Of a stretch of 64,000 nt of DNA, positions 53,701-64,000 are shown piece after piece. The notes under the pieces are model-generated. The model was given only the letters and a program-made list of their open reading frames with translations. It ran no database searches and was not told where the DNA came from. The stretch is taken from assembly GCA_037974965.1 (NCBI GenBank), contig JBBPFI010000003.1, forward strand, positions 62,001 through 126,000, in the 5' to 3' direction. Each line of letters starts with the position of its first letter. Positions within the stretch are counted from its first letter, which is position 1. Both the position numbers and the translations under genes were made by a program. Source of the stretch: Dacryopinax spathularia (lineage: Eukaryota; Basidiomycota; Dacrymycetes; Dacrymycetales; Dacrymycetaceae).

Positions 53701-54204
53701 GACTCAAATGAACGCAGAGACGTCCCGCTGATGATCATGAGGGTTGGATCGAAGGCGCACTACTTGACCTCATATTGTGTCCCGGCCTGGCAAATGGAGA
53801 CAAACGGTCACGTGTTTATCATTCTGTAAACATGCCTCCACGTAGTCGGTTGAACTGTTTCGAACACACGTTGAGGTTTCAAGAAGCTCAGCTGGCGCCT
53901 CCATTACTGGGTATGCTGAGATTGACCCTGTTGGATGGTTAGAAGAGCTACTGTCCCAACTGACAGCCAGGGTGTAAGGGACTACCCTTAGTAATCAACC
54001 TGCCGTAAGCAGGTTGAGGTTTATCTCGTGCCTCTAGGGCACGCGTGGTTTTCCCACGTCTTCTTTCCTACACCCTGTCGTAGGCAGACTCAATACATTG
54101 GTTCTGCGTACTACGGTGTAGATACACCGAAGAGTCTAACGACTCTTACATTTTTTTACGCACGCCTACGTGCGATTCTGCTACAGGGTATTACCGCTGT
54201 CCAA

Positions 54205-57060
54205 ATGGATCAGCGGCAACCTCGCCCGCCTGACGCTCTGCGCCAGGAAACTCCAGGGACAGCAACCGACGTCTCTGGCATGATACCGCCAGCATCGACG
54301 GGCAACAGCCCGGGCGCTGGATGGCGATCGACGCCAAGCCCTGTAGGGACTTGGGTAGGACCTCATCCGACGTTACCGTCGGCTGCACCTCCGGCGTCGG
54401 CCTCGACCCGTGCGATCGACGGCGCGTCGCTCACGAGGATGACCTCAACATCTGGTCCGTCACCGACACCAGCTGGAGGCCACCTCGAGCCTGACTGGGT
54501 CGAACAATCCCGGCCCGTAAGCCGGTCCGCCAGCCCTGGCGTTCTTACAGCCGCTCCAGCGGAAGGTATACATCAGCTGGCTAAGCTGTTCGCCAATCTG
54601 GCGCAGGGTTATGATATCCTGAAGAATATCAACCCCGAACAAGCCGAGGTGATCGCCGAGCTGGCTGCTCGGATAGCTGGAGGGCAAGGGGCTGCGGTGG
54701 ATGGCGATCCACCATCCGGAGGTGCCTCGAGGGCATCCGGGGTAAACTCCCCGGCGTCTCATCATGCTCCTATCCAGGAGGATAGTCTCGTTCGTGGCCT
54801 ACGCCGAGCCGCGGTACAACCATTGGACGAACCAATTGGTGCGTCGACTCCCATCGACGAAGGGGACCGTTTAGAGACGGAATCGGTGAGGATCGCTCCT
54901 CAGACCGATAGTCAACAAAACCCGGGACTTCGACCTCCCGGTGGGACCTCCAGGGTTGGCGGCCAACGCTCTGGGCATAAGTACCCCGAGGGGTACTACC
55001 GTTCTGAACCGCCCGGCCCTTATGGGAGGGACGGACAGAACGGAAAATCCGTTGGACCTGATCTCGAGGGATTTCCTCGCACCCCGATTCAATCGAGGAA
55101 ACATCGTGGACACACGACGGCTACGGTTTTCGCGTCTCTAGACGAGACACGCGGTCGGCCTGCCCCGGTGTCGACCGTATTGGTGCCTAACGCGCCCAAC
55201 GCTCGCATCCAGAATTGGCTGGATGATGCGATGGAGCCCCCATCGGGAGCTCATAACTCCGGCTTGGTCAAACCAAGACACCCCGACCCGCCCTACTCGG
55301 GCGAACAGGATACCGAGGTATTCCTGACCTTCCTCGCACAATTGGTGCGTATGTTCCGCATTGCGGGGACCACTGGCCCCGAGTATACGAGGTGGCAGGT
55401 CACAGTCCTCGGGCAATACCTGACCGGTTCAGCGTCCCGCTGGTATGAAGCGAACGTGGAGCAAGGAAGCGTTCCACGGAGGGACTGGGATTTCCCCAGA
55501 ACGATCAAGGGGTTATATGGTCATTTCTTCACTAATGAAGAAACGTACAAGGCGTACGATCGGTTCGAGCGCCTTAACCAAGGCAGCAAGACCGTAGAGG
55601 CCTTGAAGGACGAGCTCCTAAACATACTCGGGCAGATGACCGAGGTACCGAACGAGTACTACATTCGTCGGCGGTTCCTAGAGGCTCTAGGTTCAACTAT
55701 CCGTACTCGTATTATCGAGAACGGTTACGATCTGGAGCAAGGCTCCTTCGACGAGCTGTATAGCCGCGCTCGCGAAATAGAGCGGGCTAGAGATCTAGCT
55801 CGTGAGGTTAACTCCTCGGTCAACTCGTCTCGTGCCTCTGGGCACGCCTTATCTACACCAGCGGTTAACCGTACCTCTGGCCGAGCGAAACCATCCGTTT
55901 CGACGCACACCCCGCAGGTGGGGGAACGGTCCGTACACCGACCGACGCCGAAAGCGGGTGATAGACCGCACAAATCCCGTTTTGGTCGTTCACCGAACGG
56001 GGCAGGAGATCGCAATCGATCTATCCCTGATAGGTCGGGCTCTAAAGCCCGAACTCCGGCCCAGAATGGCAAATCGCCTTTGGGGAACGCTTGCTTCAAT
56101 TGCGGCAAGTCCGGCCACTGGGCCGCGGAGTGCCCCAACCAAAGGGCTGTCCGTTTCGCCGAAACGGGAGAGGCCACGAGCCGCATACAGCTCGATGATG
56201 GGGGGGTAGAAAGCATCCTCACGGCGCCTGCCGTGCCAGTCGACGAAGCCGCTGAGTCCTCCTCAGCGGATGATTACATGCATCACCCAGTGGATTCCCC
56301 GGGTGTGGAATCGTCTCCCGAGGAATGGGAAACGGATGAGGACTGCGGACCTCGCTCACTCTCCGGGGATACTTCAACCCCGCCCGAGGATATTCCTCGG
56401 TTTGCCGTCCGGGCAGCATATATTACTCCGTGCTCCAAGCTGAGCACGGTCAGCGTATCTGCTGTCTCTCCTCACTTGGGGAGCAAGACGCCAGACTCGG
56501 GCGATCTGTGGCGGCACGATAATACTGTGCGCTTGCGCAAGGGCCAGCCCTTACGGGATCCGGTGGCTTCTTCACCGATCGAGTGCTATATCGGGATTGA
56601 TGGGCACCCCGCTTGGGCGCTGATTGACAGCGGCGCTGAGATCGATACGATCTCGGCCGATTTCGTCAAAGCGCACAACCTCCGCTTTGAGAAGCTGGAT
56701 ACCCCAGTTGCTCTGCAACAGATGAGCAGAGGTAGCCGAACTGTCATCCAGTTCGGACTTCACGCGGAAGTGAAGGTCTTGGACAAAACGTCCAGCCACT
56801 ATTTCGATATAGTGAATATGGATAAATACCAAGTCATCCTTGGACTGCCTTTCGGCAGGCGGTTCCAGGTCCTCGTGGACCTGTACGATAAGGGTGTCCT
56901 TATCGGAGGAAGGGGTGGCTCCTGGCTCCCTTCGGGATCTAGGTTGTCTAGCAACCTGGCCTTGCCTGGCGTGATCAGTAGCCCGGATGGTTCATCATCC
57001 GGGAGGGTGCATAAGAGAGTGTATCCACCTTCCCGCCCGGGAAGGACGAGCCAGCATTGA
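54205..57060 (+). CDS. Retroelement gag-protease region (fossil)
   Basis: Starts MDQRQPRPPDALRQ. A Ser/Pro/Gly-rich head of about 380 residues precedes a capsid-like helical region (FLTFLAQLVRMFRIAGTTG, SRWYEANVEQG, KAYDRFERLNQGSKTVEALK), a basic linker, and a single CCHC zinc knuckle CFNCGKSGHWAAEC for RNA binding. The aspartic protease follows, with WALIDSGAEIDTIS as active-site motif and VILGLPFGRRFQ as the flap-side strand. This order is standard for Ty3/gypsy. Confidence 0.85.
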   Translation: MDQRQPRPPDALRQETPGTATDVSGMIPPASTGNSPGAGWRSTPSPVGTWVGPHPTLPSAAPPASASTRAIDGASLTRMTSTSGPSPTPAGGHLEPDWVEQSRPVSRSASPGVLTAAPAEGIHQLAKLFANLAQGYDILKNINPEQAEVIAELAARIAGGQGAAVDGDPPSGGASRASGVNSPASHHAPIQEDSLVRGLRRAAVQPLDEPIGASTPIDEGDRLETESVRIAPQTDSQQNPGLRPPGGTSRVGGQRSGHKYPEGYYRSEPPGPYGRDGQNGKSVGPDLEGFPRTPIQSRKHRGHTTATVFASLDETRGRPAPVSTVLVPNAPNARIQNWLDDAMEPPSGAHNSGLVKPRHPDPPYSGEQDTEVFLTFLAQLVRMFRIAGTTGPEYTRWQVTVLGQYLTGSASRWYEANVEQGSVPRRDWDFPRTIKGLYGHFFTNEETYKAYDRFERLNQGSKTVEALKDELLNILGQMTEVPNEYYIRRRFLEALGSTIRTRIIENGYDLEQGSFDELYSRAREIERARDLAREVNSSVNSSRASGHALSTPAVNRTSGRAKPSVSTHTPQVGERSVHRPTPKAGDRPHKSRFGRSPNGAGDRNRSIPDRSGSKARTPAQNGKSPLGNACFNCGKSGHWAAECPNQRAVRFAETGEATSRIQLDDGGVESILTAPAVPVDEAAESSSADDYMHHPVDSPGVESSPEEWETDEDCGPRSLSGDTSTPPEDIPRFAVRAAYITPCSKLSTVSVSAVSPHLGSKTPDSGDLWRHDNTVRLRKGQPLRDPVASSPIECYIGIDGHPAWALIDSGAEIDTISADFVKAHNLRFEKLDTPVALQQMSRGSRTVIQFGLHAEVKVLDKTSSHYFDIVNMDKYQVILGLPFGRRFQVLVDLYDKGVLIGGRGGSWLPSGSRLSSNLALPGVISSPDGSSSGRVHKRVYPPSRPGRTSQH

Positions 57061-57335
57061 CTCGTAGCGGAGACCTCTTCGACAGGGGCTACCATCGCCC
57101 CGACGGAGAGCTCTCCGCGGACACTAGTCGCCGTACAATCGGCGTCTGCCCTCAAAGGTGGGGAAGGTCTCTCCTCGTACCCAGAGGACCATATGCAAGG
57201 TATACGAGATACCTTGATCGCGGAGATAGTGGACCTCACGGGGGAGATTCCCCCCGTGCTTCCGCCCTTGAGGGCGGTCAACCACCGCATCAATCTGATT
57301 GATGATAACGCGTCCTACGTGACGCGGCGTCCTAC

Positions 57336-60300
57336 GTGACGCGGCGTCCTACCTGTCCCGAAGCGCACCTCGATGAGCTGCGAGAAAAGACCCAGCAGTA
57401 CCAAACTGCTGGATGGTGGGAGCCCAGCTTCTCTGGTAACGCGTTGCCCATGCTCTGCGTTACCAAGAAGAACGGCAAGCTGCGCACGACAGTGGACTGT
57501 TGTGAACGTAACGCCAATACGGTAAAGGACGTTACGCCCATGCCGGATCAGGACGAGATCCGTCAATGGGTCGCTCGACACCCATTCAGATCCAAATTGG
57601 ATCTGCGCAATGCATTCGAAATGCTTCGAGTGGAGCCAGACGATGTCTGGAAGACTACCTTCAAAAATCCCTTTGGGACTTTTGTTAGCCATGTGGGGCA
57701 ACAGGGAGATTGCAACCTCCCTGCATCATTCCAACGAATGATGATGTTCATCTTCCAGAAACACTGGATGACCAAGGTAGTCTCGTACCTTGACGACATG
57801 TTCATTGTCGGAGAATCCTTAGTCGAGGCGATCGAAAACCTAAGGGTGGTTTTCGCTATTCTGCATGAGCAGAAACTATACTTGTCGGTGGACAAGGTCT
57901 GTCTGCTTTCAGACAGTATCGAATGCCTCGGGCATACGATTACGGATGACGGCATATACGCTGATGAGGACAAAATGTCCGTCATCCGCAACGCGGCTTT
58001 CCCGCGGGATGTTAAGTCCATGCAGAGCTTTCTCGGCATGGTAACATATCTGGCTGCATATATGCCGGGGGTCGCAGCGTATACTGCGCCCCTATCCGCG
58101 CTTACGCACAAGAACAAGAAGTTCTTGGTTACACCAATGCATAAGCATTGTTTTCAGAAAATCCTGGCCATGACGGACAGGTACCCGGTGCTTAAACCCA
58201 TCGATCCGAAGAACGGGTTACCGATCTTCGTCATTACCGACGCGTCTGTAACAGGCGTCGGCGCCTATTACGGGCAAGGCCCTTCCTGGGACCAAGTACA
58301 ACCGGCGGCGTTTCATTCGCGCCGGTTCACGAATGCGCAGATGGCGTATCCGACGTACGAGCAGGAACTGCTCGGAGTGCTCGAAGCACTCCTCAAATGG
58401 GAGGATAAGCTCATCGGGCGCCGGTTTACGGTGGTCACCGACCACGAATCCCTGCGCTATCTTCAAACGCAGTCATCCTTGTCTAGACGACAAGCCCGGG
58501 CCTTGGAGTTCTTGGCCCGGTTTGACTGCACCTTTATGCACGTGCCGGGACGACTTAACGTCGTCTCGGACTGGCTCTCTCGCTTCACCGAGGAGAAATC
58601 GAGCGTCATGGCTGACGCTCGCATAGACAAGGAAGGGGATACCTTATCCTTGGCAAGACGCGCCGAGCTTATGCCCAACGTGTCCGTTCGCATCATGCAA
58701 ACGCGATACCAAGGGACGAAGATCCCTCCTCGGGAGAGGGTGGAGCGCCCTGAACCTCGTACACTAGAAAGTGTACGGATTAACAATCCCAAGCCCAAAC
58801 GGGCTAAGACTGATATCCCGGCCATAGACCGGTCCGAACCGCGCGTACGCGAAAGCGTGCGAATTAACGGTGACCCCAAGGGGATACCGGCGCCTTCTGC
58901 TGCTGCTGAAGTGGTTGCTGCCGCTGATGCTGCTACCGGGGCTGTGGCTCCGGCGAAGGATAGCCTCGTCTCTGTAAACAAGGGTGACGTCTCGGGCTTG
59001 GGCGAGGGGCATTCTAGCCCCCAGGGGGCCAGTGCGAACCGGTCCATCCTGGATCGAGAAGATCGACCGCTCACAGTCGCTAATTCCCGATCTCCGGGGG
59101 TGCCAGCCTCGCTGGAGTTCACAGATCAACCTGATCTGCTCCTGGCAATTCGCCAGGGATACGCAGACGATCCTTTTTATAAAAAGGTGCAGGCAACGTT
59201 GCCTGGATCCACCCTGTTCGCATTAGACGCAGGGGGTTTCCTCCTATCCCTCTCCGGTGGCGGATCGGCGGTATACGTACCCGAATCATGGGTCGACGGA
59301 CGCAAGGTACGTTCCTTGCTCATCGAGCAAGCGCATATTAGCGTAGGACATTTCGGTCCTACGAAGACTTGGGGCTCGCTTTCACCCCGATTCTGGTGGC
59401 CGGGCATGTCCCGGGAGATCAAGGCTTATTGTAAAGCCTGCCCTCGATGCGTTACATCGAAGGACTCAACGTCCAAGCCTGTTGGCTTGCTTCATTCCCT
59501 TCCCACTCCGGAAGCGCCATGGCGTTCGATCACCATGGATTTTATGGGTCCTTTGCCGCTCTCTGGCGGGTTCGACTATTTATTAGTCGTTGTCTGCCGA
59601 TTCTCGGCGATGATCCACCTCATCCCTCTGATGACTACATCATCATCGGCGGATGTGGCTCGCTTCCTCCTCAGGGAGGTGATCCGCTTGCACGGGGTTC
59701 CGGCGAGTATCGTATCTGATAGGGATACGAAGTTTACTGCCAAATACTGGCAGGAACTGCATAAACAGCTAGGGACGAAGCTGCTTATGTCCACCGCCTT
59801 CCACCCGCAAACGGATGGGGTAACCGAACGCATGGTTCGCTCGGTAACGCAGGTACTGCGCGCCGTCATCAAGGACGATCAGACGGATTGGTTCTACCGT
59901 CTACCCATGGTGGAATTCGCGGTTAACGCTAGCGTTAGCGCTTCCACGGGCTTCAGCCCGTTTGAACTCAACTATGGGTATACCCCATCCTTGACCAACC
60001 TGGTCAAGCATACCGAGTCCGAATTTCTCGGAGTAGATAGATATGCCCGAGAAGCTTGGTATAATGTGCGCATCGCTACGGATGCGATTATCGAGGCACG
60101 GGTACAACAGGCCTCGTCAGCCAATCGACACCGGCGACCTGCGCCGGAGTACCAAGTGAACGACTTGGTTTACTTGTCTACGCGGAACTTAGCTGTTCCG
60201 AAGGGCAGGGTAGCGAAGCTCATGCCTCGCTACATTGGTCCATTCACGGTCACCAAGGTGACCGGCACCGATAACTGTAAGTTATCGCTCCCAGATTTTA

Positions 60301-60683
60301 TGCTGGCACGCCGTATCCATCCGGTGTTCCATACGAGCCTGCTTAGGCCGTATGTACAGTCTGACTCTGCGATCTTTCCAGATCGCAGCCCCGAAGCAGT
60401 TTTCGGAGATGCTCCAGCCGATGAGGAGTACGTCGAACAAATCGACGACCACAGATGGCATCGGGGCCAACTGCGCTTCCACTTCGTCTGGTCTGACGGC
60501 ACCCAAACGTGGGAGCCGCTAGGCAAGGCAGACCGATTGGCTGCCTTGGATGAATACCTCGCATTGCGAGGGGTCCGTAACCCGGACGAACTTCCCCAAA
60601 TCGGGAAGGAAGGGAGATCGGGGGTTTCCCCGCACAACCATAAGGCCAGAAGGCCAGAAGCACGGAAGCCGCGAAGCCCTTGA
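57336..60683 (+). CDS. Retroelement pol region: RT, RNase H, integrase, chromodomain (fossil)
   Basis: About 1115 residues. Reverse transcriptase: LPMLCVTKKNGKLRTTVD, RSKLDLRNAFEMLR and VVSYLDDMFIVG (YLDD active site, near residue 150). RNase H: ITDASVTGVGAYYGQG and ARALEFLARFDCTFMHVPGR. Integrase: HISVGHFGPTKTWGSLSPRF with CKACPRC (zinc-binding HHCC), then TMDFMGPLP, SDRDTKFTAKYW and TDGVTERM for the DDE core. The C-terminal chromodomain reads YVEQIDDHRWHRGQLRFHFV and WSDGTQTWEPL. Chromodomains of this kind guide insertion to marked chromatin in chromoviruses. Confidence 0.9.
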   Translation: MTRRPTCPEAHLDELREKTQQYQTAGWWEPSFSGNALPMLCVTKKNGKLRTTVDCCERNANTVKDVTPMPDQDEIRQWVARHPFRSKLDLRNAFEMLRVEPDDVWKTTFKNPFGTFVSHVGQQGDCNLPASFQRMMMFIFQKHWMTKVVSYLDDMFIVGESLVEAIENLRVVFAILHEQKLYLSVDKVCLLSDSIECLGHTITDDGIYADEDKMSVIRNAAFPRDVKSMQSFLGMVTYLAAYMPGVAAYTAPLSALTHKNKKFLVTPMHKHCFQKILAMTDRYPVLKPIDPKNGLPIFVITDASVTGVGAYYGQGPSWDQVQPAAFHSRRFTNAQMAYPTYEQELLGVLEALLKWEDKLIGRRFTVVTDHESLRYLQTQSSLSRRQARALEFLARFDCTFMHVPGRLNVVSDWLSRFTEEKSSVMADARIDKEGDTLSLARRAELMPNVSVRIMQTRYQGTKIPPRERVERPEPRTLESVRINNPKPKRAKTDIPAIDRSEPRVRESVRINGDPKGIPAPSAAAEVVAAADAATGAVAPAKDSLVSVNKGDVSGLGEGHSSPQGASANRSILDREDRPLTVANSRSPGVPASLEFTDQPDLLLAIRQGYADDPFYKKVQATLPGSTLFALDAGGFLLSLSGGGSAVYVPESWVDGRKVRSLLIEQAHISVGHFGPTKTWGSLSPRFWWPGMSREIKAYCKACPRCVTSKDSTSKPVGLLHSLPTPEAPWRSITMDFMGPLPLSGGFDYLLVVVCRFSAMIHLIPLMTTSSSADVARFLLREVIRLHGVPASIVSDRDTKFTAKYWQELHKQLGTKLLMSTAFHPQTDGVTERMVRSVTQVLRAVIKDDQTDWFYRLPMVEFAVNASVSASTGFSPFELNYGYTPSLTNLVKHTESEFLGVDRYAREAWYNVRIATDAIIEARVQQASSANRHRRPAPEYQVNDLVYLSTRNLAVPKGRVAKLMPRYIGPFTVTKVTGTDNCKLSLPDFMLARRIHPVFHTSLLRPYVQSDSAIFPDRSPEAVFGDAPADEEYVEQIDDHRWHRGQLRFHFVWSDGTQTWEPLGKADRLAALDEYLALRGVRNPDELPQIGKEGRSGVSPHNHKARRPEARKPRSP

Positions 60684-60710
60684 CTACGCGGAAGAAGCAA
60701 TTTCTTTTGT

Positions 60711-62967
60711 ATGCTTCTTTCTTCCGCCTGGTGCGGGAGCAATCACGGGCCTAATCTGCCCGTGCCCGCCTTCACAAGGCGGAACGCCTCTAATATTGAG
60801 GCCACCACCCTTACTAAGGGCGGCGTCAGCGAGCTCGAGCTCGACATCCCCTCTCCTTCCGCGACCACCCACCCCGTCTCGATGAACGACGAGGAGGAAC
60901 CGCTGTTCCTCCCCGACACCCCTCCTCCAGCCCCGGCTCGAGCTAGCAATAGCTCGCCGATACATCGTTCAGATGTATCGGGAAACTCCTTGGGCGTGGA
61001 CTTAGGTCCATCGTCCAGTACTGCGGTGGAGTCATCCACCGATGCCGATTCAGTAGCTGCCTCGGCTGCTGCTGCTGTCGCTGCTGCCGCCGTACCAGGC
61101 GCGGCAGTGTTTCCAGCCACAAATTGGCCGGCCACGTCGACACCTCCTGTCTCGACAGCCATTACGGCTGAACCATCCCTTGTAGCCTGGTCTACGCCCC
61201 CCCTCTGGATCTTCGTCCGCGGTGATGGTGTCACCGATAACTACGGCGTCCTCTATGGACTTCGTATCCCACGAGCAGCTCGTAACCCGCTGCTCGGAAC
61301 TCGCGGAGCAACTCCGTGTCCGCACGATCGAGCGTGATGATGCTCGCGCGTCCATCGTGAGCTGGAATCGCGCTCTGGACGAAGCCAACCGCAAGGTTGG
61401 GATACTCGAAGGTCGCGTGTATGACCTCAAAAACCAGCTCGAACGAGCTAAGGCCAGGGAGGTGTCCCTGGAAAAGGCCCGGGACTCGGCGGAGTCCCGC
61501 TGGGAGTCGATGCAGGTACAGCTCGCCGAGTATATCACTCGGTGCACGGAGGAGCGGGAGAGGACGGACCACGCCCGTGGGCAGAGAAACCGCCTGGAGC
61601 GGAAGTACACGGAGCTCAGGCGAGAGTACGATATCCTCGAGGAGGATCTCCGTCGCCTTCGACGTGGTGCGGACCGTTCCAAGGGAAAGGAACGCGCCTC
61701 CTCTCCGAGGAACTCTCGGTCGCCTTCCCCCTACAAGGAGGGGGGTGGGTACCGGGCTTCCCGGCGACCTGCTCGATCGCCGACGCGCTCATCCTCTGAG
61801 GATGAGGATATGGATTGAGGTAACCGCTCCCCGACCCCTCGCACCCGCTCGCCAACCCCGCAGGCGCGAACACCGACTCCCGACCCGCATGCCGGGAGGA
61901 TAACCTCCCGGGACTACTGTGAGAAGGGCATTGCCAGCCCTTCTTACATTTTCCCTCAGCCTGACGTCGCGTCAGGACCGGCTCAGGCGTCTTCATCGAG
62001 GGCTGCCTCGCTTGTGCCTCCGTCCTCATCAAGGACGGCACCATCGAACTCGAGGGGAACCCCCTCGTATGCGAGTGTTGCTCAAACACCCGCATATACT
62101 CCTCTGGGTAAACGCCCAGCTGAAGAACCTCCGATGGGTCCCCCTCCCCGCAAACTCCCCACTCCTAGGAGTGGCTCCGTCCCCCTGGGGGACATTCCTG
62201 ACGGCTCTACGAGCCATCAGGCTCACCCTCCCCTTCCAGGGGCGCCGGAGCTTCCCCCGGATTCACCATGGAGACGCGTGAGGAGTCCTCACGATATCAC
62301 AGCCTTGCGCCAGGCTGGTGGTGAAGTTTGGCGTCGTCTCAAGACTGACGCGCCCGTGTATCGTGCACGGTTTGGGATTACCCGGGAATACCGGAAGTGG
62401 GAAGGGCTCGCCGACAAGCCCCTCCTCGGCAAGGATAACCTGCGAAATGCAGGGCGTGGCGTGCGTCGCACGATGGACGGCCGATATTATCGACCGGATG
62501 CCGATATCTTCTTCGAGATCGAGAAGATCCGGGAGAACATGGTTAAGAGCAACCATGTAACCAAGGCCATGCGGACCTTGTTCTTCGAGGAGCTCCTTCC
62601 CTCGCTCTTCCAAATGCCTACCTCTTGGCGGGAAGCCATGGATGGGTATTCCATCCCGGATCGCCCATCCTCTCGGATGGTGTTCAATATTCTGGCTGCT
62701 TTCGAGCCAGTTCCTCGGGGTGCCCCAAACGTCCCCGTTGCGTGGTCCCGGCGCGAGGTGGTGCGTCAGCTCTCCCTCACCGGCTTGGCCCGGGGTTCTA
62801 GTGAGAAGTTGAATCACTACTTTGCCCGCAAGAAGGGCGAGCGCCCGTATATCATATACGATCATCAGCTTCCCTATTGGGACGCTGCGGATTTCACGGA
62901 GCCCCGCGACGGAGCGGCTCCGACCGCACAAGCGCTCGCGGCGCTGTGCGACCTTCTTCCCTTCTAA
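60711..62967 (+). other. Extra coding region downstream of pol (fossil), unrecognised proteins
   Basis: Mostly open on the plus strand, in the same sequence style as gag and pol. First part: MNDEEEPLFLPDTPPPAPAR and Ser/Ala-rich sequence. Middle part: a long coiled coil (HEQLVTRCSELAEQLRVRTI, KNQLERAKAREVSLEKARDS, RKYTELRREYDILEEDLRRL) followed by an SR-like tail (SPRNSRSPSPYKEGGGY). Last part: a Pro-rich linker (RPAEEPPMGPPPRKLPTP), then a compact-looking domain (GGEVWRRLKTDAPVYRARFG, ADIFFEIEKIRENMVKSNHV, SEKLNHYFARKKGERPYIIY) ending ALCDLLPF. I recognise none. They could be accessory proteins of the same element or of a second one next to it. Confidence 0.5.
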
Positions 62968-63497
62968 GGCGAGTGCGACTCTCGGGTAGTGGTCGAGGTT
63001 GGAGGGGTTGGTGTCCGACCCGGAAAGGGGCGATCTGGTAGTTCGGGAAGGGTGGGGGAATTGGGAGCAGGAAGGAGGATCAACAAGGACGATTTGACGA
63101 ACGGTACGCGGGCGGGAAATCGGACGAAGACGCGGAGCTGGGGCTAACTAATTGGATGGTGGTCGAGGATCGAAACGCGGCCACGAGCCGCATAGCTGTA
63201 CAGTTTGTACTTCTAGGTAAACGGAACCCTCCTTTTCCCGTGTGGAGCGGTTTCCCCCGACCCTTCCGCGAATCCCCGTCCGGCACCCGGGATCGATATA
63301 CCGGAGCCGGCCGGAATCCTGCCGGCGAACAGGCCGGTACCGGGCCTCGCTGAGTCATCCGCACCTAGGCGCTTACGAAGCCGCACACCTCCCAGGGACT
63401 TTGCATCCGAGGCCGTCCCCGGCCTCATCGTCCGACCTTCCTCGAAAGCCCAACCCCCCTACTCACCGACAGCCCACGCACAGGTGTCTTAGCCCAG
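62968..63497. other. GC-rich noncoding stretch
   Basis: No supported gene. It still holds a few strong inverted repeats (63270-63345 with GCCGGC blocks, and 63409-63426), the last of the series seen in the retroelement. The right limit of the element probably lies here. Confidence 0.4.
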
Positions 63498-64000
63498 ATG
63501 GCCGACGACAATCCTCCCGACATACCTGTTCCCCCGGACTACCCGCGATTTGTCGCCGAAGACGCGCCCTGGTCGCCCGAGCTCGCGAAATGGGTCGAGT
63601 ACCCAACCAACTACGAGGCCTTCGAAGGGTGGTTGGAGGGAACGTGGGGAGAATGGGTGCGTCCGTCGTCGTCCATCCGATCGCTGTTTACTAACCCGGA
63701 TTGTCGGCGAAGGCTCGATTGACACGGGAATGGTCCCAGCACGGCTCCTGGAGCGAGGAGAAGATGGAGGCGGCCGCCGCGTACTTGGCGTTTGTCGAGG
63801 CGCGGCAGCGCGAGGACCTATGGGACTACGCCCCCGAGGACGACTCCGGGTGGGACGGGGCGCTGGATGAGGCCCTCCCGGAGGGTGTCCGCCAACGAAT
63901 GAGAGCCCTCGAGGCCCGATTCCCCGTAACGGCGTCCGCCTCCGATTCCCCGAGTCTCCCAGCCGGGCAAGAAACCTCGTCCTCAGCCCCCGTTCCTCTC
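63498..64000 (+). CDS. Spliced gene of unknown function, 5' part only
   Basis: MADDNPPDIPVPPDYPRF opens at 63498, with AELAKWVEYPTNYEAF-like and EGWLEGTWGEW sequence. A 56-nt intron (63657-63712) has donor GTGCGT, a perfect TACTAAC branch site and acceptor GCGAAG. It joins in frame to ARLTREWSQHGSWSEEKMEA, YLAFVEARQREDLWDYAPED, GALDEALPEGVRQRMRALEA and a Ser/Ala/Pro-rich stretch that is open to the window edge. Acidic and Trp-rich; no family recognised. It could be a host gene, or the first gene of a further element, since element proteins of this size and charge are common. It lies just after the retroelement, so the latter cannot be ruled out. Confidence 0.5.

Follow-up and report, generated by a model that had tools for sequence, protein, structure and literature searches.

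Why should a retroelement be packed with short perfect hairpins along its whole length, in coding and noncoding sequence alike? This question is raised by a 64,000-nucleotide stretch of contig JBBPFI010000003.1 of the fungus Dacryopinax spathularia (here called the window), in which a preliminary description, made from the sequence, had placed such a retroelement at positions 53940 to 63430. We found that positions 53973 to 62944 are a copy of a Ty3/gypsy-type long terminal repeat (LTR) retrotransposon, here called family A, located on contig C3. Computation revealed an array of hairpins that exceeds codon-preserving nulls, is present in three diverged families, and is favored by the pattern of substitutions, with a stability optimum in two of the families and a loop size specific to each. 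Our best explanation, to which we give a probability of roughly 50%, is that selection keeps the whole element (LTR, gag, pol, and a third open reading frame, ORF3) as an array of stem-loops that are simple, local, and perfect, on a single-stranded genome for which its own Gag is a plausible reader.

53973..62944, + strand: LTR retrotransposon, copy of family A, recognized by homology to four other copies; hairpin-dense over its whole length in the window

The genome sampled comprised 29.2 Mb in 24 contigs, and all the evidence comes from this one genome. DNA and protein searches of it recovered eight copies belonging to three related families: five copies of A, one of B, and two of B2. Copies are named by contig, the window copy being C3; its A sisters include C4, C5, and C9, whereas B is represented by C18 and B2 by C2 and C11. 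The five A copies are 0.47 to 3.77% apart, and B and B2 are 67 to 70% identical to A in the protein of the reverse transcriptase (RT) region.

Hairpins were counted per kb as perfect stems of at least 6 bp with loops of 2 to 12 nt, unless another stem cutoff is named. Between 53940 and 63430 there were 16.65 hairpins per kb versus 2.22 elsewhere in the window, which bears out the claimed contrast with the neighborhood. The corresponding densities were 34.0 versus 8.7 for stems of at least 5 bp, 8.0 versus 0.59 for at least 7 bp, and 3.69 versus 0.18 for at least 8 bp. The element proper reached 17.4 per kb, compared with 2.54 ± 0.53 (maximum, 3.68) in 30 dinucleotide shuffles. Counting stems of at least 5 bp, about 25 nonoverlapping hairpins per kb (chance ones included) covered 40 to 42% of the coding sequence, coverage by chance included. 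All 15 hairpins quoted in the preliminary description were present, with stems of 7 to 9 bp. The following examples were computed:

53995..54017, + strand: hairpin, stem 9, loop 5
54980..54997, + strand: hairpin, stem 8, loop 2
56384..56400, + strand: hairpin, stem 7, loop 3
57724..57743, + strand: hairpin in the RT-coding region, stem 8, loop 4
62537..62558, + strand: hairpin in ORF3, stem 8, loop 6

The dense zone extends from 53975 to 62922, and the excess starts and stops with the element. The interval first described therefore stands as far as 62944; its last ~490 nt, including the example at 63409 to 63426, lie in a later insertion without the property, and just two stems of at least 6 bp start between 63001 and 64000.

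The host sequence examined, as had been judged by eye, has no such density. Two 9-kb host stretches were near their shuffles at stems of at least 6 bp (2.0 versus 2.69 ± 0.58 and 2.56 versus 2.07 ± 0.49), the second lying 2.3 standard deviations above them at stems of at least 7 bp. None of the six longest open frames of window positions 1 to 53000 exceeded its own shuffle maximum, and one (0.57 per kb) was 2.5 standard deviations below. Shuffles preserving protein, codon use, and dinucleotides (25 per kind) were made on sister copy C9, the frames of the window copy being broken. The C9 densities were 15.0 per kb versus 3.7 ± 0.7 in gag, 18.9 versus 3.1 ± 0.6 in pol, and 15.8 versus 4.6 ± 1.7 in the last 1137 nt of ORF3. 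As the shuffles reached just 3.1 to 4.6 per kb, the earlier suggestion that synonymous sites are shaped for base pairing was upheld, and the density equaled neither that of codon-preserving shuffles nor that of the host frames tested. Dinucleotide, codon, and codon-plus-dinucleotide shuffles all failed to reproduce it, ruling out chance, base composition, and codon use as its source. Given also that most other retroelement loci and host frames examined lack the trait, we attach practically no probability to a by-product of base composition, codon use, or protein sequence.

Window folding with z-scores, proposed as a check in the preliminary description, agreed with the counts. Over 66 windows of 120 nt on both strands, the window copy gave −2.46 on the plus strand and −2.40 on the minus strand, that is, about −2.4 on both, versus about 0 (−0.07 to −0.27) in the two host stretches. 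Two gypsy loci gave 0.04 and −0.21 (L034) and −0.66 and −0.57 (L037). Mean plus-strand values for the three families ranged from −2.3 to −2.8.

The density is common to the three families. RT-region loci of all eight copies (L001 to L008) carried 10.8 to 20 stems of at least 6 bp per kb, and codon-preserving shuffles yielded 2.75 per kb for B, which has 13.1, and 3.3 and 3.1 for the two B2 copies, which have 10.9 and 12.0. The next-nearest RT relatives in the genome were sampled as 21 loci (L034 to L054) cut from 88 matches, about 31 to 32% identical and including many copies of one family. Unlike the element, 19 of these 21 gypsy loci were not hairpin-dense (1.66 to 2.91 per kb); L037 and L038 had 4.56 to 5.05. 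Three copia loci, out of seven matches, were also counted, two of them at or below background and one at 4.84 versus 2.28 expected. Hairpin density is therefore not an ordinary property of the host genome or its retroelements at the loci examined. A weak excess of 1.8- to 2.7-fold over shuffles was seen at L037, L038, L057, and L058 and is perhaps a milder form of the same trait. Beyond this genome, a viral contig collection yielded no relative with a single-sequence query and one locus of 27% identity with an alignment query, and a genome contig collection yielded three related contigs at 29 to 34% identity. These four outside loci (27 to 34% identity, flanks included) had hairpin excesses of 1.05- to 1.9-fold, far below that of the element.

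Third codon positions in pol differ by about 57 to 62% between A, B, and B2 (identity, 0.38 to 0.43), which is near saturation. Hairpin centers coincided between families in 11 to 16% of cases, compared with 2 to 3% by rotation, mostly via unchanged bases. Because third positions are nearly saturated and so few centers coincide, most hairpins have turned over while the density was kept; conserved individual RNA structures were not supported.

Next, the anatomy of the hairpins was compared among families. Stems are mostly 5 to 8 bp in A and 5 to 6 bp, up to 7 bp, in B and B2. Loops are A- and T-rich and mostly of 3 to 7 nt, with family preferences of 3 to 6 nt in A, 3 to 4 nt in B, and 5 to 7 nt in B2; the contrast is sharpest between B and B2 (P = 2.7e-8), followed by A and B2 (P = 0.0008) and A and B (P = 0.016). 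The 3′ part of B, not used before, again showed the B preference (11 three-base and 8 four-base loops versus 1 five-base loop), and 3′ pieces of B2 not used before repeated theirs less clearly. Pairing past the first mismatch was at about chance level, continuation after a one-base bulge was at most about twice chance (in B, 8 and 7 versus 3.4), and, among stems with one internal mismatch, most mismatch types were in mild excess. In B and B2, enrichment was highest at stack energies of −10 to −12 kcal/mol and lower in stronger stems. In A, it kept rising overall with stem energy, although seven-bp stems were enriched 3.6-fold if GC-rich versus 30.6-fold if AT-rich. Relative to shuffles, short stems were GC-rich and seven-bp stems AT-richer. 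Five-base loops of B2 had T at position 4 in 36 of 53 cases and A at position 2 in 28 of 53, and 37 of the 420 A-N-T triplets in B2 (8.8%) were hairpin centers, compared with 1.3% of all odd centers. Three-base loops of B were enriched for T at position 1 (34 of 79) and A at position 3 (37 of 79).

How the array is maintained was addressed with substitutions among copies, tests that rest on a few hundred changes. The deepest A branch, C5, has 186 private substitutions, of which 31 lower and 47 raise the stem score. Losses thus occurred at 0.43-fold (95% interval, 0.29 to 0.61) and gains at 2.2-fold (1.5 to 3.0) the neutral rate. The comparison of the B2 copies C2 and C11 (127 substitutions) showed the same trend in a second family, with loss at 0.27 versus 0.33 and gain at 0.14 versus 0.11 in one direction, and 0.13 versus 0.31 and 0.28 versus 0.11 in the other. 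The 101 changes private to the other four A copies were close to the null (breaks, 0.32 versus 0.37; gains, 0.13 versus 0.08), as expected if they arose mostly after insertion. Changes common to C4 and C5 (8 gains, 3 losses, 24 neutral) were too few to decide.

The preliminary description had also considered a copying mechanism that makes hairpins, in which RT, folding back on the strand it is making, would use one arm as the template for the other and so produce perfect hairpins without selection. Such copying would account for stems that are perfect and show little wobble, bulging, or continuation; the family-specific loop size could be a property of the enzyme, and a 17-nt duplication and a 10-nt deletion among the A copies both lie within hairpins. 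However, to explain the depletion of losses on the C5 branch it would need about 25 to 40 erased mismatches, half of which gives an estimate of ~12 to 20 doubly changed pairs, and only 0 to 2 doubly changed Watson-Crick pairs were seen among 1,657 to 1,719 pairs in each of eight comparisons. Protein conservation is about the same at stem codons as elsewhere (0.63 to 0.75 versus 0.60 to 0.71), enrichment of seven-bp stems is much weaker if they are GC-rich than if they are AT-rich, and the B2 loop motif is left unexplained. Gains on the C5 branch fell on both arms (24 versus 28), and transition shares were alike for gains (0.83), losses (0.87), and neutral changes (0.81); the transition share of gains does not discriminate arm copying from selection. 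Because losses are depleted and gains enriched, on both arms and with ordinary transitions, and because doubly compensated pairs are so rare, we conclude that the array is maintained by selection rather than by a copying mechanism, which we consider very unlikely. The interpretation offered earlier was thus partly supported: genome-wide ordered structure is the best reading of the array, and copying is disfavored.

On the reading that selection holds the array, the structure would act while the genome is single-stranded, most likely as packaged RNA and possibly also as first-strand complementary DNA (cDNA). The hairpins may serve as dispersed recognition and folding sites for the family's own Gag/nucleocapsid (Gag/NC) or ORF3 protein, which would thereby select, compact, and protect its own genome, by analogy with the dispersed packaging signals proposed for RNA phages. 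The family-specific loop size and the B2 loop center point to a reader that changes along with each family, for which Gag/NC or ORF3 would be the simplest candidates. A plus-strand cue was found in B, where A lies directly 3′ of the hairpin in 103 cases versus 52 (P = 0.0016). Going further, each family may have its own hairpin dialect, some 200 stem-loops of family-specific loop size (in B2, also loop center) that selection would maintain and the family's Gag or ORF3 would read; we propose this tentatively, as a possibility short of an even chance.

Four RNA phages, including MS2, Qbeta, and AP205, served as a positive control, and one single-stranded DNA phage, phiX174, as a further yardstick. 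The Watson-Crick stem excess was 7.5- to 9.4-fold in the element families versus 4.0-fold in the pooled RNA phages, hairpin densities were 11.4 to 17.4 versus 5.0 to 7.8 per kb, and folding z-scores were −2.3 to −3.2 versus −2.0 to −3.0. The RNA phages showed a mild pooled preference for G.T over A.C within stems (2.02 versus 1.62), with the reverse in MS2 (1.72 versus 2.54). No stem excess was seen in phiX174, the one example run.

Several observations weigh against a selected, Gag-read array on the single-stranded genome. As to selection, the C5 ratios shrink to 0.65-fold for losses and 1.45-fold for gains if C5 is taken as ancestral, changes common to C3 and C4 lack the excess of gains (5 gains, 10 losses, 38 neutral; too few to decide), and 48 changes outside the main coding part did not differ from the null (P = 0.19). 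As to a common architecture and reader, stems of at least 8 bp are in strong excess only in A (2.6 to 4.7 versus ~0.3 in codon-preserving shuffles) and hardly enriched in B (0.67 versus 0.24) or B2 (0.33 to 0.34 versus 0.20 to 0.25). Only B2 has a strong shared loop motif; that of B is weaker, and A has none. The new B2 3′ pieces are sparser (5.0 and 6.8 stems of at least 6 bp per kb), and A-N-T formed the center of odd loops in 9 of 17 cases in one of them and in 3 of 18 in the other, where G-N-T accounted for 5. As to the molecule, folding z-scores are equal on both strands of the element (and nearly so in the RNA phages), and A just 3′ of the hairpin is not significant in B2 (P = 0.077) or A (P = 0.31). 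G.T was not preferred over A.C within stems (2.10 versus 2.43 in A, 1.32 versus 2.20 in B, and 1.90 versus 1.99 in B2), and at predicted RNA stabilities below −4 kcal/mol stems with one G.U pair were enriched 0- to 3.5-fold versus 3.1- to 10.1-fold for pure Watson-Crick stems as stable as these. The G.U test is weak and cannot exclude RNA, yet it leans away from plus-strand RNA alone. The want of a G.U preference does not exclude plus-strand RNA, since the RNA phages show nearly the same strand symmetry and, pooled, just a mild G.U preference.

The same data bear on the possibility that the selected molecule is DNA, that is, that hairpins of the first-strand cDNA (or cruciform-prone double-stranded DNA) serve compaction, protection, strand transfer, or integration. 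Near-strict Watson-Crick pairing, strand symmetry, A/T-rich loops, and the 3- to 5-nt loops of A and B are consistent with it, as is the enrichment of A.C at least equal to that of G.T (in B, 50/22.7 versus 25/19.0). However, RNA phages are nearly as strand-symmetric, so that symmetry is no proof of DNA, the sole single-stranded DNA example lacks an excess, and B2 favors loops of 5 to 7 nt; we regard a DNA role of this kind as rather unlikely. A generic genome-scale ordered structure, in which a compact, self-paired RNA is selected for resisting nucleases, RNA interference, or sense-antisense pairing and has no specific reader, is a possible, if unlikely, explanation. Strong folding z-scores on both strands, hairpin positions mostly unconserved between families at a kept density, and the stability optimum in B and B2 all speak for it. 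Nevertheless, such a structure should use G.U pairs, bulges, and longer imperfect helices, which the low enrichment of G.U stems and of continuation past one-base bulges contradicts, and family-specific loop sizes and the B2 loop center ask for a reader.

The structure of the element that carries the array is as follows:

53968..53972, no strand: 5-bp target site duplication CAGGG, whose second copy follows the 3′ LTR at C3:141146
53973..54150, + strand: 5′ LTR of 178 bp, TGTAAG...CTTACA, itself hairpin-rich; supported by LTR pairs in other copies and 10 LTR places in the genome
54205..57060, + strand: gag-protease frame with Ty3_capsid-like region, CCHC zinc knuckle, and retroviral protease (Pfam); ends in TGA
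57310..57326, + strand: 17-nt tandem duplication that breaks the pol frame; private to the window copy and absent from all four other A copies
57336..60683, + strand: pol frame with RT, RNase H, integrase, and Tf2-1-type SH3 domain (Pfam); ends in TGA
60711..62944, + strand: ORF3, the third reading frame, with a coiled-coil-like part and a domain of no assigned family; found in A, B, and B2
62945..64000, no strand: start of the ~15.7-kb insertion, outside the hairpin-dense element, with hairpin density at background; the element resumes at C3:140669

Direct LTRs starting with TG and ending with CA were found; the 178-bp form is present at both ends of all five A copies, and the end repeats of B and B2 are 230 to 233 bp long, in B running from TGTAAG to TTTCA. 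Target duplications were looked at in the A copies, all five of which have one of 5 bp (CAGGG, CGGCA, ATATT, CCCAT, and CGTTT), and a G-rich tract precedes the 3′ LTR in A. Just after the 5′ LTR (54151 to 54180 in the window) there is a T run, TTTTTTTACGC in A, followed by TAC, and likewise a T run and then TAC in B and B2. No tRNA-type TGG was found just after the 5′ LTR in any of the three families, tRNA ends not having been compared. The longest complement of the post-LTR sequence within the element's own LTR was 7 nt in A and B and 10 nt in B2, the latter 52 nt downstream.

In the gag-protease frame, zf-CCHC and RVP_2 were over the Pfam cutoff and Ty3_capsid below it; the start of gag is probably the ATG at 54205, the listed frame opening at 54028. 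Pfam matches follow the order protease, RT, RNase H, integrase both in A, where they are spread over two frames, and in B, where one frame contains them all. The gag-protease, pol, and ORF3 frames of family A are in phase, with a single TGA between each (57058 to 57060 and 60681 to 60683), in the contexts TGA-CTC and TGA-CTA, the latter of which we take to resemble known stop-readthrough contexts. In family B, gag and pol are fused into a 1985-aa frame without a stop. ORF3 evolves fast, with 24 to 29% identity between families, and in the window copy its frame is broken by one extra base at 61197 and interrupted at 62944. It had no Pfam match over the cutoff, and its 317-aa window piece had no homologue at an E value of ≤0.001. 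A role of ORF3 as a hairpin-binding protein found no support in homology, and a single-sequence structural model was unusable (mean predicted local distance difference test score, 39.5).

The ~15.7 kb lying within the element (62945 to C3:140668) is probably a single nested insertion. Within it lies a 1276-aa RT frame (C3:135489-136805, minus strand) that bears no more than a distant resemblance to that of the element, and the part of the insertion within the window has no hairpin excess. Beyond it the element resumes and continues to the end of the 3′ LTR at C3:141146, after which comes the CAGGG that matches 53968 to 53972. Two larger private indels among the A copies both coincide with a hairpin, namely, the duplication at 57310 to 57326 in the window copy and a 10-nt deletion in C4 at the place of 61797 to 61806. 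In the alignment of A copies over 53973 to 62000, variants occur in blocks of differing groupings, with 57422 to 58963, for example, mostly separating C3 and C4 from the other copies, a pattern that suggests that lineages of the element have recombined. In B2, the C11 copy has an additional open frame (L023, 1 to 918) that resembles a Tc1/mariner-type transposase. RT matches with many TGA codons on contigs C19, C23, and C24 are probably mitochondrial intron RTs under another code.

Among known elements, the closest likeness is to agaricomycete Ty3/gypsy retrotransposons in which a Tf2-1-type SH3 domain follows the integrase (in Trametes, Phanerochaete, Mycena, and Ceratobasidium), which have in common TG...CA LTRs, 5-bp duplications, a zinc-knuckle Gag, and the order protease, RT, RNase H, integrase, SH3. 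Among the 120 listed of 458 matches, relatives of the pol protein outside the genome, known as proteins only, had identities of 39 to 51% across part or the whole of the query. The named protein relatives would point to an agaricomycete host. In contrast to these retrotransposons, the element has a third ORF, and no tRNA-type primer site was seen in it.

Genome-scale ordered RNA structure in RNA viruses is an excess of folding energy along the whole genome at positions that are mostly not conserved. The element resembles it in both respects but differs in being an LTR retrotransposon and in that its structure consists of perfect hairpins that stand singly and have a loop size particular to the family. 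In RNA viruses, dispersed packaging signals, as outlined in PMC6281560, PMC4751978, and PMC7612645, are many short stem-loops spread over the genome, with a proposed shared loop motif read by the coat protein. The element is like them in its many stem-loops beyond chance along the genome; it differs in that family A lacks a loop motif and that its reader is a putative one. RNA phages in turn have the lower densities given above and, in Qbeta and AP205, somewhat more paired continuation past the stem. For yeast Ty3 genomic RNA, probed by selective 2′-hydroxyl acylation with mutational profiling (SHAPE-MaP), PMC11381356 describes a mosaic, in which ~24% of the nucleotides are paired with high probability and well-folded regions take in up to 30%, and places the known packaging and dimerization signals of retroelement RNA in the 5′ part. 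By that description, local structure in LTR retrotransposon RNA, including the RT-coding region, is a likeness, and the mosaic differs from the uniform array found here. No paper on a hairpin-tiled retrotransposon was found among titles and abstract openings of the open literature searched with limited word combinations, and within that literature a uniform hairpin array would be new for LTR retrotransposons.

Overall, the array suggests a second, structural message on top of the protein code. Co-resident families have the trait in common but mostly not the hairpins, which evolve under measurable selection. Comparison of such families within one genome makes two questions testable: by what means a retroelement distinguishes its own RNA from all other RNA, and what share of synonymous sequence is really structural. 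It also supplies a natural case, beyond RNA viruses, in which the theory of dispersed packaging signals can be tested. If true, hairpin dialects would amount to a code for self-recognition spread along an LTR retrotransposon at a higher density than in RNA phages, and would let co-resident families sort their genomes.

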